Shown: one piece after another, positions 9,934 through 42,000 of the stretch | How positions within the stretch are numbered: position 1 is the stretch's first letter | Layout of the letters: each line of letters starts with the position of its first letter | Source of the DNA: Thermanaeromonas toyohensis ToBE | Lineage (GTDB): Bacteria > Bacillota > DSM-521 > Neomoorellales > Neomoorellaceae | DNA: 64,000 nt | Direction: 5' to 3' | NCBI RefSeq assembly: GCF_900176005.1 | Contig: NZ_LT838272.1 | Span: 516,501 to 580,500, forward strand | Translations under genes and position numbers: made by a program | The notes under the pieces: generated by a model | What the model saw: the letters and a program-made list of their open reading frames with translations, nothing else | Told to the model about the DNA's origin: nothing | The model's database searches: none

Positions 9934-11922
9934 TTATTTTGAAACACCCCAACGAGTCCTCAGCCCATACTTATACAGTTTCCTATATAAGGTGCTCCGT
10001 GCTATGCCCAAGGCTTTGGCCACCTTAGTTATATTTCCACCGTAATACTCGAGAAGGCGCCTAATCTCCTGTCTTTCCAGCTCTGCCAGAGTGACCGAAG
10101 AAAAAGAAGAACAACAACTGTCCTCATGGGGAGTTCGGGAATCTGATAAGTAAGGTGGCAAATGACCTGGAGAAACAGTATTACCTTCTGCCAAATTTAC
10201 TGCCCATTCGGCCACGTTGCGCAGTTCCCTTACGTTTCCTGGCCAGTCATATTTTTCTAATAGAGGCCAAATAGATGGATCGATATAGGTAATATTTTTA
10301 CCTAACTTTTGCGAAACTTTACGCACAAAATGTTCAAAAAGAAGGGGTATATCACTTTTACGCTCGCGTAATGGGCATAGGTGAATAGTAAAAACTCCCA
10401 GGCGAAAATACAGATCCTCTCGGAATTTTTTCTCCCTAACTAGCTTCGGTAAATCCGAGTTGGTCGCCGCAATAACTCGGACGTCTAAAGGGATCTCCTT
10501 ATGTCCACCCAGGCGCACTACTTTCTTTTCTTCCAGCACCCGTAAAAGATACACCTGTATATCTGGAGGCATCTCGCCAATCTCATCTAAAAACAGAGTA
10601 CCTCCTTGGGCTTGTTCAAATTTGCCTGGCTTACCCTCTGGCCGTGCACCAGTAAAGGCCCCGCCCACATAACCGAAAAGCTCGCTACCTACTAGCTCCC
10701 GCGGCAAGGCGCCGCAATTTATCGCCACGAAAGGCCCCTTCCGGCCGCTAGCCTCGTGTATAGACCTAGCAAACAGTTCTTTACCAGTCCCTGTCTCACC
10801 CAGAATAAGCACCGGAGCATCACTACGGGCCGCGATGTAGGCCAATCGTATACTTTCACGCAAACGAGGATGATTCCCTAAAATATGTTCAAACCCTTGT
10901 AAAGTTAGGGGAGAGCTCATATAAAATTGGCTGCTGTCAGGCAATTTAAGGGCTATCAGAGCCGCTACGCTTTCATTGTAGTCACCAGTTACAGGTGAAA
11001 GGTCCGCCCTGCACCGCAAGACTCCTTTCCTGCCTTGTACTAATATTTCCTTACCCTTTATACTTTGTCGCCCTTCTATGAGGGATAAAATTTCCTGCGG
11101 ATTGCCAAATATTTCTTCAACCCTTCGCCCTATTAAATCTTCTATTTTGCATCCCAGAACTTTCTCAGAGGCACAATTAGCTCTGACTAGTCTTCCTGTC
11201 CTATCCACAACTAATAAGGGATCGCTGTTGTTTTCTAAAAAGTGTTTTGTGAGTTGCCTGTAAATCATAGTTTCTTTTTGGGCCCTATTCTGTCTCAAAT
11301 TGTTTTCGATAGCTACGGCAGCAACTACTACAGTAGCTAGGGCCTGCTTATTTTCCCGGTACCAGGGCCCAGAAAGATCTATTATTCCAATAGGTTGTCC
11401 TTCAGGGCCAAAAATGGGGGAACCAGCGCATGTCCAGGAATGAAGGCCGCAGCAGAAATGCTCGGCCCCAGTGATCTCGAGGGCTTGCCCTAAAACCAAG
11501 GCAGTACCTATACCGTTAGTACCCACCTTATCTTCTCGCCAGCAAGCGCCGGGAATAAAATTGATCCTTCGAGCCATATCTATAGTTTCCTGGTAGTTCC
11601 CTAATATCTCCAGTATGTAACCGTCCTCTCCCACTAAAACTGCGAGAAAACCCAGGCTACCGCACAGCGCCAAAAGCTTTTCCATTATCGGCTGGGCAGC
11701 ACGGATCAGCTCTTCTTGTCTCTCCCTAGCTTCCTTTAAGGCAGAACCCTCGATAATCTCCTGCCCTTGTCTCTGGTACGGATTGACGCCTATATTCTTG
11801 CATCTTTCCCAAGATTTGAGTATTTCTGGCCTTATAATTTGTCCCGAAATGGTACTAGTGTTAAGATATCTATTCCATTCATACCACACTTTTCGATATA
11901 CTCCATAAAAATTTTCCACCAT
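9934..11922 (-). CDS. acoR: Sigma-54-dependent activator, AcoR-like
   Basis: Enhancer-binding regulator of about 662 residues. I place the start at the ATG at 11922 because GGAGGAGAGG precedes it; an upstream extension to 12108 is non-coding-like. The N-terminal part (ILKSWERCKNIGVNPYQRQG, then GAF- and PAS-like regions) resembles AcoR/DhaR sensors. The AAA+ domain has Walker A GETGTGKE, the sigma-54 contact loop GAFTGA and LFLDEIGEMP. The end is a Fis-type helix-turn-helix (ITKVAKALGIARSTLYRKL). It presumably activates the acoABC-lpdA promoter just downstream in response to acetoin or a related compound. Confidence 0.88.
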   Translation of the reverse strand: MVENFYGVYRKVWYEWNRYLNTSTISGQIIRPEILKSWERCKNIGVNPYQRQGQEIIEGSALKEARERQEELIRAAQPIMEKLLALCGSLGFLAVLVGEDGYILEILGNYQETIDMARRINFIPGACWREDKVGTNGIGTALVLGQALEITGAEHFCCGLHSWTCAGSPIFGPEGQPIGIIDLSGPWYRENKQALATVVVAAVAIENNLRQNRAQKETMIYRQLTKHFLENNSDPLLVVDRTGRLVRANCASEKVLGCKIEDLIGRRVEEIFGNPQEILSLIEGRQSIKGKEILVQGRKGVLRCRADLSPVTGDYNESVAALIALKLPDSSQFYMSSPLTLQGFEHILGNHPRLRESIRLAYIAARSDAPVLILGETGTGKELFARSIHEASGRKGPFVAINCGALPRELVGSELFGYVGGAFTGARPEGKPGKFEQAQGGTLFLDEIGEMPPDIQVYLLRVLEEKKVVRLGGHKEIPLDVRVIAATNSDLPKLVREKKFREDLYFRLGVFTIHLCPLRERKSDIPLLFEHFVRKVSQKLGKNITYIDPSIWPLLEKYDWPGNVRELRNVAEWAVNLAEGNTVSPGHLPPYLSDSRTPHEDSCCSSFSSVTLAELERQEIRRLLEYYGGNITKVAKALGIARSTLYRKLYKYGLRTRWGVSK

Positions 11923-37009: not shown

Positions 37010-37103
37010 AGATAGGCCAGAGAATCATTCTTCACCCCGGGTGGGTATCCACCAACGTAGTATCTAAGTGGCTAGAATCTTTGGGAGATGGGATACCCAC
37101 CCG
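37010..37103 (+). repeat. Relic end of the same element as at 21.7-22.1 kb
   Basis: TAGATAGGCCAGAG matches the right terminal repeat of the element at 21670-22108 (reverse-complemented), after which the two diverge. It is followed by the same kind of inverted pair, CGGGTGGGTATCC and GGGATACCCACCCG (about 37038-37103). Only one end is seen, so this is a remnant. Confidence 0.5.
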
Positions 37104-37130
37104 CAAGGGAATCCTTCCTTATTTCGCTTT

Positions 37131-37613
37131 TTACTTTACCTGCTCTAAATAAAGACGTTCGCTCTGGGGATCGTAGGAGATAACCTCTGCAAACCGGCCC
37201 CAATCTACAATGGTCTTAAAAAGCTGTTCTGCATCTTCATCAGACATGCTCTGCTCGAAAAAGTCCACTAGCTTTTCCCGCCTAATACTACGCTTGCCTG
37301 TTGAGTTTAGTAAGCGAAATACTTCCTTAAAAACTTCTATACCTTCTAATTGACGAGCTAGTATAGCCTTTCGCCCGTTTATATCTGCTGCTAGGAGATT
37401 TTTACCTACTTCGGTAATAATAATATCTCCATCGCTTATCTTTACTAATCCTAACAGCACGGCGGCTTCAATGACTGGTTCAATATCATCTAGCTCTAGG
37501 GAAAGACCCCTAGCTAGCTTGAAAATATCCTCTCTTCCCTCAGCGTCCTCTAACATCTCCAGAAGCCCCAATACCATCCCTATACCCACAGGGGGTAGAG
37601 GCACAACGTCCAC
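37131..37613 (-). CDS. AAA-associated C-terminal domain protein (ABC transporter accessory)
   Basis: 160 residues resembling the domain (AAA_assoc_C) often fused behind NitT/TauT-type ATPases. It starts LPPVGIGMVLGLLEMLEDAE, continues with a winged-helix-like part (VIEAAVLLGLVKISDGDIII), and ends with KLVDFFEQSMSDEDAEQLFK and TIVDWGRFAEVISYDPQSER. It has no transmembrane helix. As a separate gene 64 bases after the ATPase gene it probably modulates that ATPase. The start is weakly defined (ATG at 37613). Confidence 0.7.
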   Translation of the reverse strand: MDVVPLPPVGIGMVLGLLEMLEDAEGREDIFKLARGLSLELDDIEPVIEAAVLLGLVKISDGDIIITEVGKNLLAADINGRKAILARQLEGIEVFKEVFRLLNSTGKRSIRREKLVDFFEQSMSDEDAEQLFKTIVDWGRFAEVISYDPQSERLYLEQVK

Positions 37614-37677
37614 AGATTTTTGCCCTCCCTTTTGCCGCCTGCTCTTTTTACTTTTTAAATATTATTATACCAGCCTT

Positions 37678-38427
37678 CTAGAAGAGAAGCGAATAAATTT
37701 TATCCACTATAGCTGCAAAAGCCTGATCCCTCATATTGCGGGGGCGCGGTAATTCAATTTTTATATCCGCCAAGATCCGGGCTGGTCTTTTGGAAAGCAC
37801 AATGATTCTGTCGGCCATGAACACAGCTTCCTCTATGCCATGGGTCACCATCAGCACCGACTTAACCGGTAGAGTAACATCCAGCCACAGATCCAATACT
37901 TCCTCCCGTAAGTTCTGGGCGGTAAAGGCGTCCAAGGCGGAGAAAGGTTCATCCATACATAGGAGTTCTGGGTCCATGGCCAAGGCCCTGGCGATACCCA
38001 CCCTCTGTTTCATTCCCCTGGAGAGTTCTCGCGGGTACGCTTCTTCAAATCCATCGAGCCCTACTTTATCAATATATTTACTAGCTATCTTTTCCCTCTC
38101 TGGCCGGGGGACTCCTTTGGCCTCCAGCCCTAAAGCTACGTTTTCCTTTACGGTGAGCCAGGGGAATAAGCCGAAGGACTGAAAGACAATGGCTATTTTA
38201 TCCGTGACCCCATTAATTGGCCTGCCGCGATAACGGATCTCACCTTGAGTCGGCCGGTCCAGCCCGGCTATCATCCTTAGAAGGGTACTTTTTCCAGAAC
38301 CCGAGGGTCCTACCAGGCATACAAATTCACCTTTATTTATAGTAAAGGTAATATCATTTAGCACAGTCAAGGAACGGGTAGCATCTTTATAAGTTTTATA
38401 TACGTGTTCAACTTCTAGTAACGCCAC
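37678..38427 (-). CDS. ABC transporter ATPase, NitT/TauT type, under M-box control
   Basis: 249 residues. Walker A GPSGSGKSTLLRMIAGL, Q-loop in VFQSFGLFPWLTVKEN, signature LSRGMKQRVGIARALAMDPE, Walker B LLCMDEPFSALDAFT and the switch His in VTHGIEEAVF. It is like the ATPases of nitrate, taurine and sulfonate importers. The gene follows the double permease by 13 bases and belongs to the M-box-controlled operon, so magnesium or another divalent ion is a candidate substrate. The usual C-terminal accessory domain is on a separate gene here. Confidence 0.85.
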   Translation of the reverse strand: MALLEVEHVYKTYKDATRSLTVLNDITFTINKGEFVCLVGPSGSGKSTLLRMIAGLDRPTQGEIRYRGRPINGVTDKIAIVFQSFGLFPWLTVKENVALGLEAKGVPRPEREKIASKYIDKVGLDGFEEAYPRELSRGMKQRVGIARALAMDPELLCMDEPFSALDAFTAQNLREEVLDLWLDVTLPVKSVLMVTHGIEEAVFMADRIIVLSKRPARILADIKIELPRPRNMRDQAFAAIVDKIYSLLF

Positions 38428-38440
38428 CTCCTACACCCCC

Positions 38441-40153
38441 TCACTCTTCCGCCTCGAACGAGAACTTGGCTGCAGCCCATTCATAAAGCCTGCGCCAGAA
38501 AAAACGATTTAACAGCACGATGACGAGGACCATGGTCATAAGGCTAGACCATATTACTTGGAAATTTCCACTAATATACATAGCCTTATCTAAAAGGGAT
38601 CCAATACCGAAAGTCATATAGGTTTGGCCAGCATATACTACATACTCAGAAACAATAAGGGCATTCCAGCCCCCTCCCCAGGCAGTAATACTTCCTGTAA
38701 CGAGGGAAGGAATGAGGGCGGGAAAGACTACCCGGCGTAAATATTTAGAACCCCGTAGGCCGAAAACCATGGCGGCTTCTTTCATATCCCGGGGAATACT
38801 TTTTACACCAGCTATTAGGTTAAACAGGAGATACCATTGCATACCAGTAAGAACCAATAAAATGGCCGCTAGCTCCATACCCCCGGTAAACCCTACCAAA
38901 AGGAAAACAATAATGGGGAATAAAGCGGTGGCTGGTACCGAGGCCAGTACTTCAAAAACAGGTACAAGGACTTCGTAGGCCCTCTCATTATGTCCTATCC
39001 AGATGGCTACCGGCAGAGTCCAAAGCAAGGACAAAACATAGGCTGCTAAAAGGCGCAAGAAGGAGTAAAAGATGGCTTGGGGGATGGTAAAGATTTCTGC
39101 CTGCCAGGGCTGCAAAAAGAGACCTATTAAGGCTATGAGCCCCCGAAGAAGAGAGTAGGCCAGTAACAAAATCAATCCCCAAGAAATAATGCGGCCTACC
39201 CAAGGGAAGTATAAACGCCCGGGAAACTTAGAACCTAAAGAAACTATAACCCTTCCCAGGGCGCTTCCACTAGCCAGTATCAGTCTCCTTAACTCGCGAA
39301 AGACCGGGGCTTCATACCATAACCGGTAACCCCAACCTTTGGGGATCTGTCGTCCACCGCCGGTCTCAAACTCGTACTTGAAATTTTCCGCCCAGGTAGA
39401 AAGGGGATGCCAGATAAAAGTATTCATAAGGGTAATTATGGCTACCAGCGCCAAAAGGCCAGCCATAGTTAGACCTAGTTCCCCTTCTTCTGCGGTCCGT
39501 ATTAGATAGCTACCGAGACCGGGCAAGGAGTATTCCACCGGGCCTATAGTTATGATCTCAGCGGCGATGAGAAAATACCAACCACCGCTCCAAGAAAGAA
39601 TACTGTTATACACTAGCTTGGGGATACCCGCTGGAAGATAAAGCTTTAGAAACCGGCGCCATCCAGTAACCCGGTAAGCATCTGCTGCCTCCTTTAGTTC
39701 ACCGGGAATGGTGGTTATAGCTTCATAAAACCCAAAGGTCATGTTCCAGGCTTGGCTGGTGAAGATCAAAAAAATAGAGGCTAGCTCAATACCCCAAATA
39801 CTGCCGCGGAATAAGTTGACAAAAAAATAAATAGCCGCGGGGAAAAATCCTAAAATGGGTACTGATTGAAGTACATCGAGAACGGGAAGCAAGATTTTTT
39901 CCGCCCTGGCGTCAGTGGCTGCCTTATAACCATAAGCAAGGGAAAATATTAAAGATAGAAAATAAGCTGCCAGCATACGCAAGAAAGAGCGCAGGGCATA
40001 ATAGGGAAGTATTCCCAAGCTGACTAGGACAGTAGTTTGCCCGGCCAGCTCGGTTATCCGATGCCCGTGATAAGCAAAATAAGCAAAGGCACTAAGGAGC
40101 GCTACCGCCACCACAGTTAAACTCAGATTACCAGCCCTTCTCAACACCTTCAC
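38441..40153 (-). CDS. ABC transporter, fused double permease, under M-box control
   Basis: 570 residues: two complete binding-protein-dependent permease domains in one chain. The two EAA loops read EAADAYRVTGWRRFLKLYLP (about residue 160) and EAAMVFGLRGSKYLRRVVFP (about residue 470). Each half has about six helices. This corresponds to the family annotated as duplicated permease of an anion-type ABC system. No substrate-binding protein gene is adjacent, so either one is encoded elsewhere or none is needed. The mRNA leader is a magnesium (M-box) riboswitch, ending about 40 bases before the start codon. Confidence 0.85.
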   Translation of the reverse strand: MKVLRRAGNLSLTVVAVALLSAFAYFAYHGHRITELAGQTTVLVSLGILPYYALRSFLRMLAAYFLSLIFSLAYGYKAATDARAEKILLPVLDVLQSVPILGFFPAAIYFFVNLFRGSIWGIELASIFLIFTSQAWNMTFGFYEAITTIPGELKEAADAYRVTGWRRFLKLYLPAGIPKLVYNSILSWSGGWYFLIAAEIITIGPVEYSLPGLGSYLIRTAEEGELGLTMAGLLALVAIITLMNTFIWHPLSTWAENFKYEFETGGGRQIPKGWGYRLWYEAPVFRELRRLILASGSALGRVIVSLGSKFPGRLYFPWVGRIISWGLILLLAYSLLRGLIALIGLFLQPWQAEIFTIPQAIFYSFLRLLAAYVLSLLWTLPVAIWIGHNERAYEVLVPVFEVLASVPATALFPIIVFLLVGFTGGMELAAILLVLTGMQWYLLFNLIAGVKSIPRDMKEAAMVFGLRGSKYLRRVVFPALIPSLVTGSITAWGGGWNALIVSEYVVYAGQTYMTFGIGSLLDKAMYISGNFQVIWSSLMTMVLVIVLLNRFFWRRLYEWAAAKFSFEAEE

Positions 40154-40193
40154 CCACTTCTTATAGCCTCCGATATTTAGACTTCTTATAGAT

Positions 40194-40221
40194 AAAAAAG
40201 TCCTCCCGAGCAGGAAGACTT
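40194..40221 (-). terminator. M-box expression-platform terminator
   Basis: On the minus strand AAGTCTTCC pairs with GGGAGGACTT (40221-40198) and TTTTTT follows. It lies between the M-box and the permease gene, as expected for Mg2+-induced termination. Confidence 0.85.
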
Positions 40222-40237
40222 AAAATTTATCCCCCAC

Positions 40238-40386
40238 TCGTTGAGCTTTGGCTCATGCATAGCTAGAGATTCCTCTCAGCCACATTAGGTAAAACCTTAA
40301 GCCGGTAATACCTGTTGACCCATTGGCGTCTTTCGACGTTTCCGGGCAGTGGCTTTTGTCTATGCAGTAGCCTCACCTAACGAGGA
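40238..40386 (-). promoter_or_regulatory. M-box (ykoK) magnesium riboswitch
   Basis: The minus strand reads CTCGTTAGGTGAGGCTACTG, then TAGACAAAAGCCACTGCCCG, then GAAACGTCGAAAGACGCCAA, TGGGT and GGCTTAAGG, the conserved blocks of the M-box in order. The ends close as CTCGTT (40385-40380) with AACGAG (40243-40238). M-box RNAs fold on Mg2+ and turn off magnesium transport genes such as mgtE, mgtA and corA. Here the controlled genes are an ABC transporter. Confidence 0.93.
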
Positions 40387-40410
40387 AATATATATGCAAT
40401 TGTCGTTCTC

Positions 40411-40440
40411 ATTATAGTTTAACGGAATCAAGCTAGTCAA
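40411..40440 (-). promoter_or_regulatory. Promoter of the M-box transcript
   Basis: On the minus strand TTGACT (40440-40435) and a perfect TATAAT (40416-40411) are 18 bases apart. The RNA would begin about 20 bases before the M-box. Confidence 0.8.
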
Positions 40441-40525: not shown

Positions 40526-40765
40526 ATGGCTGATATAACGTTATGGATGGGCCCTTTCATCAGCCAGAAAGACGTAGAGCGGGTACAGGATATTTTACCC
40601 CATATAGGAGACGGGGATCATCTCACTATCTCTATGGAGGCGGCTGACGCCCACCAAGCAGATTCTATAATACGCTTGCTAGACGAATACGGCTTTAATT
40701 ACCAAAGTCGGGGGGACAGTGATGGCCACACGTATCATATAGTGGCCTGTAGGCGGCCAAAGTAA
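40526..40765 (+). CDS. Small protein of unknown function
   Basis: 79 residues, acidic, without signal or membrane segment: MADITLWMGPFISQKDVERV, then ILPHIGDGDHLTISMEAADA and YGFNYQSRGDSDGHTYHIVA. Alternating beta-type and helical stretches suggest a small alpha/beta fold; the histidines and acidic residues could bind metal, but that is speculation. Its mRNA start diverges from the M-box promoter about 85 bases away. GGAAGGGGACAAGG lies before the ATG. Confidence 0.6.
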   Translation: MADITLWMGPFISQKDVERVQDILPHIGDGDHLTISMEAADAHQADSIIRLLDEYGFNYQSRGDSDGHTYHIVACRRPK

Positions 40766-40854: not shown

Positions 40855-42000
40855 ATGAAGCGCATTATAATTGCCCCGGATTCTTTTAAGGAAAGCTTAG
40901 ACGCGCCCCAGGTGGCTAAAGCCATCGCCGCCGGAGTAAAAAAAGCCCTTCCGAATGTGGAAACAGTGGAAGTTCCCCTGGCGGATGGGGGGGAGGGGCT
41001 TACGGCTACTTTAGTAGCCGCTACTGGAGGGAAACTTATAGAAACAGTTGTTACGGGGCCACTAGGCGAGCCAGTAACCGCCCGATGGGGTCTTTTGGGA
41101 GATGGCCACACAGCAGTGGTGGAGATGGCCCAGGCTTCTGGCCTTCCCCTTGTTCCTAAAGAAAAGCGCAACCCCCTTTTTACTACTACCTATGGAACAG
41201 GAGAGTTAATCCGCGAGGCTCTGGCTTCTGGGTGTCAACGGTTGATAGTAGGTATAGGAGGTAGCGCTACCAATGATGGCGGCGCGGGTATGGCCCAAGC
41301 CTTAGGGGTAAAGCTTTTAGATGAAGCTGGCCGCGACATCCCTTGGGGTGCCGTGGGGCTAGAGAAACTTCAGCATATTGATATGCAGAGCCTTTTCCCG
41401 CGGGTAAAAGAAGTAGAAATATTAGTAGCCTGCGATGTGGATAATCCCCTCTGCGGCCCGCGGGGGGCTTCGGCCGTGTATGGTCCTCAGAAGGGGGCTA
41501 CCCCCGAAATGATACCTAGGTTAGATGCCGCCCTGGCCCGCCTCGCTGATATAATAGCCCGGGATTTGGGGATAGAGGTACGTGATCTTCCTGGCGCTGG
41601 GGCTGCCGGGGGCCTGGGTGCCGGGCTGGTGGCTTTTTTAGGGGCCACTTTACGTAGGGGCATTGAGCTAGTGATGGAAACTGTAAACCTGGAAGGGATC
41701 TTGGCAGCAGGGGCGGACCTAGTGATAACAGGAGAAGGCGAAATAAATCGGCAGACGGCTTATGGGAAAGTTCCTACTGGTGTGGCTAAGGTGGCCGGGA
41801 AATATGGTATTCCGGTGGTGGCCCTGGTAGGTTCCATCGGCGAAGGTGCCGAAGCCGTATATGAACATGGAATTAAAGCGTATATGAGCATAGTCCCCCG
41901 GCCGGTTCCCTTATCCTATTGCTTAGAAAATGCAGCTACTTTACTTCTTGATGCAGCCGAAAGGCTGATCCGCCTGCTCACCGTTCTATCCACTGGATAG
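40855..42000 (+). CDS. Glycerate kinase
   Basis: 381 residues of the GarK/GlxK glycerate 2-kinase family. It starts IIIAPDSFKESLDAPQVAKA, and holds PLADGGEGLTATLV, GIGGSATNDGGAGMAQALG and DLVITGEGEINRQTAYGKVP. It phosphorylates D-glycerate with ATP, feeding it to glycolysis. AAGGAATG overlaps the start region. It stands alone ahead of an unrelated hydrolase gene. Confidence 0.92.
   Translation: MKRIIIAPDSFKESLDAPQVAKAIAAGVKKALPNVETVEVPLADGGEGLTATLVAATGGKLIETVVTGPLGEPVTARWGLLGDGHTAVVEMAQASGLPLVPKEKRNPLFTTTYGTGELIREALASGCQRLIVGIGGSATNDGGAGMAQALGVKLLDEAGRDIPWGAVGLEKLQHIDMQSLFPRVKEVEILVACDVDNPLCGPRGASAVYGPQKGATPEMIPRLDAALARLADIIARDLGIEVRDLPGAGAAGGLGAGLVAFLGATLRRGIELVMETVNLEGILAAGADLVITGEGEINRQTAYGKVPTGVAKVAGKYGIPVVALVGSIGEGAEAVYEHGIKAYMSIVPRPVPLSYCLENAATLLLDAAERLIRLLTVLSTG

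Follow-up and report, generated by a model that had tools for sequence, protein, structure and literature searches.

What does a magnesium riboswitch control when the gene that follows it belongs to none of the known magnesium transporter families? This question is raised by a locus of Thermanaeromonas toyohensis ToBE, which lies in a 64,000-nucleotide stretch of DNA (contig NZ_LT838272.1, positions 516,501 to 580,500; hereafter the window). Here, an M-box riboswitch, elsewhere nearly always found before known Mg2+ transporters, precedes genes for a fused double permease and an ATPase of an ATP-binding cassette (ABC) transporter, and for an AAA_assoc_C protein. The answer that we put forward, with a probability of roughly 0.7, is that this operon is repressed by Mg2+ and most likely encodes a Mg2+-importing type I ABC system that works without a dedicated binding protein. 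The ABC system is probably an unrecognised Mg2+ importer because its pairing with the M-box recurs and because relatives carry a known Mg2+ transporter in the same place.

The M-box leader and its operon

A sequence-only reading of this locus had described a promoter, a complete M-box, a terminator and the three genes on one strand, and both its coordinates and its anatomy are borne out (Table 1). The aptamer scores 147.4 bits with the RF00380 covariance model (gathering score 44, E = 1.7e-33) and aligns to positions 1-169 of the 169 in the model; the 3.33-Mb genome contains no other M-box. The leader is, in its anatomy, a standard M-box OFF switch, with a terminator and an antiterminator that are mutually exclusive by prediction, and Mg2+ would be the ligand that it senses. 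Between the last 26 nucleotides of the aptamer and the terminator's 5′ arm a pairing of -15.1 kcal/mol is predicted, compared with -12.3 kcal/mol for the terminator itself. For shuffled sequences the mean of this pairing is -9.9 kcal/mol, and 10 of 200 shuffles were as low as the real one. Similar complementarity occurs in the other ABC leaders of the Moorellaceae, in that of G192 (G numbers denote the genomes compared) and in the leaders of the CorA genes of G008 and G011; it was not seen in the leaders of G190 or G004. Promoters of the form TTGACA/T and TATAAT are also present at the equivalent position in the ABC leaders of the Moorellaceae and G192. The GTG start codon of the permease (40153) follows about 44 nucleotides past the terminator.

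The mechanism we propose has two states. At high cytosolic Mg2+ the M-box would fold, the 3′ strand of its P1 stem would stay paired and the terminator would form. At low Mg2+ this strand would be freed to bind the terminator's 5′ arm, which would allow transcription of the operon. The ABC product would then import Mg2+, with ATP hydrolysis permitting uptake against a gradient and the AAA_assoc_C subunit probably regulating the ATPase. It would thus do the job of the M-box-controlled CorA, MgtE, MgtA or NrmT of other genomes.

Targets of the M-box in Bacillota

How often does an M-box stand before genes of this kind? Our phylum-wide sample of 398 Bacillota genomes has an M-box in 134 and the permease (threshold E = 1e-40) in 24. 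From this sample and a second one of 22 genomes from the order, 130 M-box sites were typed by clustering the downstream proteins and identifying the cluster representatives. Three of these assignments were resolved by hand, with G008 (CorA) and G377 (Nramp) added from reading frames; the typed sites are those with downstream sequence, some weaker M-box matches being left out. The targets are MgtE (73 sites, one of them, in G318, truncated), CorA (30), the ABC permease (16), MgtA-type P-type ATPases (9) and Nramp (2), and no further gene class was found among the 130. The Nramp count refers to the first gene downstream, and more Nramp genes are second after mgtE.

Twelve of the 16 ABC cases belong to the Moorellaceae. 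The remaining four come from the families f93 (G192, permease identity 60%), f31 (G190, 36%) and f23 (G084 and G041, 37-38%), and a second, separate search found all four M-boxes again. Among the remaining permease-bearing genomes of the sample, three have an M-box in another place (G175, G245 and G377) and in one (G302) the locus is truncated by the contig end.

In a maximum-likelihood tree of 96 permeases, built quickly and with long branches that make exact placement unsure, the M-box-linked permeases occupy three or more distinct branches (Moorellaceae together with f93; f23; f31), amid relatives that have no M-box. The idea that they form one clade is therefore unsupported, and the link of the family to Mg2+ would be either old and often lost, or have arisen repeatedly. 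Beside the family members that lack an M-box, no Rfam element scores above threshold next to the permease.

Two neighbours of these operons may be mentioned in passing. In G190, genes for a ZnuA-type binding protein, an ATPase and a permease lie directly upstream of the M-box-ABC operon (locus L184, 5369-7960), and in locus L186 the M-box that precedes the ABC operon has a c-di-GMP-II riboswitch (10604-10687, + strand, 73.8 bits) beside it on the other strand.

One locus, different transporters

The order-level sample offers a closer view. An M-box is found in 17 of its 22 genomes and the double permease in 12, and in all 12 of these permease-bearing Moorellaceae the M-box is just upstream of the permease. 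Relatives that have an M-box and lack the permease carry the gene for CorA (G004, G008 and G011) or MgtE (G002) behind it; the M-box site of G016 is cut by a contig end. The divergent glycerate kinase gene that borders the window operon also adjoins the M-box in G011 (80% identical; CorA) and in G002 (77%; MgtE). A single chromosomal locus thus harbours ABC, CorA or MgtE genes. The leaders agree, with those of G011 and G002 being 76-86% identical to the Moorellaceae ABC leaders, e.g. the ABC leader of G005 is 86% identical to that of G011 and 81% identical to that of G002. A further member of the Moorellaceae, G018, has neither M-box nor double permease, and has MgtE and an Nramp match.

Which other Mg2+ transporters does the genome of the window encode? 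Searched family by family, it contains no MgtE, no Nramp and no magnesium P-type ATPase (MgtA equivalog) over the TIGR01524 cut-off. Of the two genes to which the sequence-only reading had pointed here, mgtE is thus missing, while corA is present once, 400 kb from the M-box operon and with no M-box of its own. The ABC system is therefore the sole M-box-controlled candidate, yet not the sole possible importer.

Actinomycetota and wider distribution

In Actinomycetota the M-box occurs in 33 of 396 genomes. Its targets there are MgtE and Nramp and, in mycobacteria-like genomes, PE/PPE-like genes or the ileS region. The M-box of G729 stands before an ABC operon of the present kind, with first a permease that shares 51% identity with a Streptomyces member and then an ATPase with AAA_assoc_C. 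Bottacini and colleagues found an M-box in the expressed 5′ untranslated region of Bbr_0406-07 of Bifidobacterium breve UCC2003, whose permease belongs to COG4986, and suggested in one sentence a role in metal ion homeostasis (PMC5746004). The sequence-only reading had made its proposal depend on a conserved association of M-box and transporter, and this is what we find: 12 of 12 Moorellaceae, three more Bacillota families, G729 and, in print, B. breve (PMC5746004). Altogether, the pairing spans at least five bacterial families in two phyla.

The Streptomycetaceae provide a different kind of connection. Their ABC operon itself has no M-box, but 11 loci have an Nramp gene within 0.5-2.7 kb of it. 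Nine of these 11 Nramp genes, some of them divergent, are preceded by an M-box. At three more loci, CorA genes start about 2.6-3.1 kb beyond the end of the permease. By rough estimate, this proximity should rarely arise by chance, given that there are few such genes among several thousand. Among 38 genomes with distant homologues, an M-box is present in three, all of them Streptomycetaceae, where it precedes Nramp genes. Members of the COG4986/PF09821 family were also met in Streptomyces, Legionella, Pseudomonas, Verrucomicrobiota and others.

The labels of two groups of actinomycetotal M-box neighbours come from reading the sequence: an isoleucyl-tRNA-synthetase-like frame in loci L295, L297, L298 and L299, and PE/PPE-like frames in L325, L326, L328, L330 and L332.

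The proteins and their relatives

What kind of transporter is encoded? In domain and NCBIfam searches the operon proteins show no homology to CorA, MgtE, MgtA or NrmT, and ABC families alone match. The top NCBIfam matches of the ATPase are the taurine, SaoA and nitrate ATPase models (E from 1e-63 to 1e-68 for taurine and nitrate), all below their cut-offs, e.g. 230 of the required 357 for the taurine ATPase, while the permease reaches 86.9 of 209 for ntrB. By sequence similarity the permease matches ntrB (1e-24) as well as CmpB and NrtB (1e-18 to 1e-19); its second half is close to CmpB/NrtB and its first half weakly similar to OpuA. The AlphaFold model of the permease (predicted local distance difference test, pLDDT, 87.5) has two MetI-type halves. 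It matches the folds of NrtBCD and CmpBCD (TMt about 0.63-0.70), and FbpBC is the best match over the whole length (TMq 0.50). The model of the AAA_assoc_C protein (pLDDT 95.2) consists of tandem winged-helix domains, for which a fold search returned winged-helix matches that were weak, all of them with E above 0.001.

The gene order, permease followed by ATPase with AAA_assoc_C, is the same in relatives. In 81 of 105 loci ATPase and AAA_assoc_C form a single fused protein, a usual arrangement that the sequence-only reading had no means of seeing; they are separate genes in the Moorellaceae and f93. As the sequence-only reading had stated, no adjacent substrate-binding protein is encoded: there is no such gene in the window operon or in the operons of the relatives inspected, and the system is presumed to have none, although one may be encoded elsewhere. 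Variations are seen in Moorella, where loci L003, L004 and L006 have a 450-amino-acid open reading frame on the opposite strand after the ATPase gene, about 2.6 kb past the permease start; in L003 and L004 it stands between the ATPase and AAA_assoc_C genes. A borderline Mn2+ (yybP-ykoY) riboswitch match (L005, 1479-1627, 45.2 bits against a threshold of 45) lies about 4 kb from a Moorella M-box-ABC operon.

How does this compare with known systems? NrtBCD and CmpBCD operate together with a binding protein, and their permease chains are separate. The window system shares with them the ancestry of its ATPase and permease halves, and differs in its fused permease halves, its AAA_assoc_C protein and the lack of a detectable binding protein. 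It is thus of NitT/TauT descent, but misses the substrate-class cut-offs and has no cognate binding protein in its operon. FbpBC of Thermus thermophilus also has a fused double permease and carries a metal ion, although it is only 16% identical and its substrate is ferric iron. The M-box-controlled MgtE, CorA and MgtA share the riboswitch, the OFF logic and, in two relatives, the very locus, whereas they are channel or P-type proteins unrelated to ABC transporters.

The precedent for such reasoning is NrmT of Clostridium acetobutylicum, an Nramp-related protein whose role in Mg2+ transport was deduced from the position of an M-box and then confirmed by experiment (PMC4072509). Again, a transporter family not previously tied to Mg2+ was recognised through the M-boxes that precede it; NrmT is, however, a secondary carrier with proven Mg2+ transport, while the window encodes an ABC system for which transport of Mg2+ is deduced. 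Bbr_0406-07 (PMC5746004) likewise has an M-box before an ABC system with a COG4986 permease, but its single-sentence report comes without a test, phylogenetic breadth or evidence of replacement.

Is Mg2+ the substrate?

The recurrence of the pairing, the replacement by CorA or MgtE at one locus and the clustering with Nramp genes together support Mg2+ import, with Mg2+ as the probable substrate and uptake as the probable direction. Several points weigh on the other side. The 16 Bacillota cases are confined to four families, five permease carriers of the sample (G205, G223, G316, G332 and G337) have no M-box, and neither do numerous other members of the permease family. The genomes of G011, G008 and G002 are fragmentary drafts; that of G011 is 58% complete, and the contig concerned ends in another, partial M-box, so an additional ABC copy may lie off this contig. 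The M-box-free CorA of the genome is another possible importer. An operon without a binding protein is atypical of a type I importer, nitrate, bicarbonate and ferric iron are the substrates of the nearest solved relatives, and no Mg2+-specific site can be named in the permease. A conserved transmembrane pair in its first half, Asp93 and Gln96, was considered as such a site and rejected, since OpuA has the same residues, which are therefore uninformative about Mg2+.

The strongest competing explanation, which we regard as unlikely although it deserves serious attention, is that the operon is repressed by Mg2+ and transports a different substrate of benefit under Mg2+ shortage, be it another cation (Mn2+, Ca2+ or K+), a polyamine or a complex of Mg2+ with an anion. 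The anions and ferric iron carried by the solved relatives are in keeping with this, as is the ZnuABC-type set that adjoins the operon of G190. Moreover, the M-boxes before PE/PPE genes and the ileS region in mycobacteria-like genomes illustrate that M-box targets are not always transporters. In Bacillota, however, all targets found besides the ABC system are Mg2+ transporter classes, the ABC genes stand in for CorA or MgtE at one locus, and the analogous explanation for Nramp was tested and rejected (PMC4072509).

Could the ABC system export or sense, expelling competing ions or remodelling the envelope under Mg2+ limitation? This would account for the missing binding protein, which no inspected operon encodes. 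That said, both permease and ATPase belong to the type I importer kind and the other M-box partners surveyed in Bacillota are all Mg2+ transporter classes, and we consider such a role quite improbable. Chance adjacency, i.e. a riboswitch left behind before an unrelated operon, might be entertained given the further NitT-type ABC permeases in this genome, but it is already contradicted by a promoter-aptamer-terminator leader kept in 12 of 12 genomes and in further lineages of two phyla, and we give it next to no weight.

Mg2+ import thus remains our preferred reading, and a broader proposal may be built on it. The bacterial Mg2+ importers described so far are CorA, MgtE, MgtA/B and, since 2014, NrmT (PMC4072509), and ABC transporters go unmentioned in a 2022 review of Mg2+ transporters (PMC9276622). 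More tentatively, with the odds slightly against us, we suggest that the ABC system represents a fifth class: an ATP-driven, binding-protein-free type I ABC importer gated by a winged-helix AAA_assoc_C subunit and present across Bacillota, Actinomycetota and other phyla. If true, this would add a primary-active class to the bacterial Mg2+ importers, provide a substrate for the widespread orphan family COG4986/PF09821 and perhaps supply an example of type I ABC import without a binding protein.

The open-access literature, outside which most subscription journals fall, yielded no paper that tests the M-box-ABC pairing or describes its breadth. The pairing itself has been noted once in print (PMC5746004), while its breadth, the replacement at one locus and the Nramp clustering appear to be new. 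The candidate importer of the sequence-only reading accordingly gains support from the conserved association and from CorA and MgtE at the same locus, and loses part of its novelty to the report from B. breve.

Features of the locus

Table 1. Position and evidence for the elements of the M-box-ABC operon and for a bordering gene (window coordinates).
Feature	Position	Strand	Evidence
Promoter TTGACT-18-TATAAT, sigma-70-type	40440-40411	-	11/12 consensus
M-box (ykoK leader) Mg2+ riboswitch aptamer	40391-40226	-	RF00380
Aptamer P1 3′ strand, proposed antiterminator strand (last 26 nucleotides)	40251-40226	-	Pairing prediction; putative mechanism
Intrinsic terminator AAGTCTTCCTGCTCGGGAGGACTT with T tail	stem 40221-40198	-	
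Fused double ABC permease, 570 amino acids, COG4986-like	40153-38441	-	Two PF00528 (BPD_transp_1) stretches, 2.7e-34
ABC ATPase, 249 amino acids, NitT/TauT-type	38427-37678	-	PF00005, 8.3e-37
AAA_assoc_C protein, 160 amino acids	37613-37131	-	PF09821, 1.2e-32
Glycerate kinase, divergent, outside the system, synteny marker of the locus	40855-42000	+	PF02595, 1.3e-155

Three further observations were made in the window. Between the M-box operon and the glycerate kinase gene is an open reading frame of 79 amino acids (40526-40765, + strand) that has no Pfam match. An imperfect inverted repeat, recognised by eye (GGGTGGGTATCC ... GGGATACCCACCC, 37036-37104), lies between a tRNA gene and the end of the AAA_assoc_C gene. 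Finally, far from the operon, at 606-749 on the + strand, there is a Moco (molybdenum/tungsten) riboswitch (RF01055, 75.7 bits).

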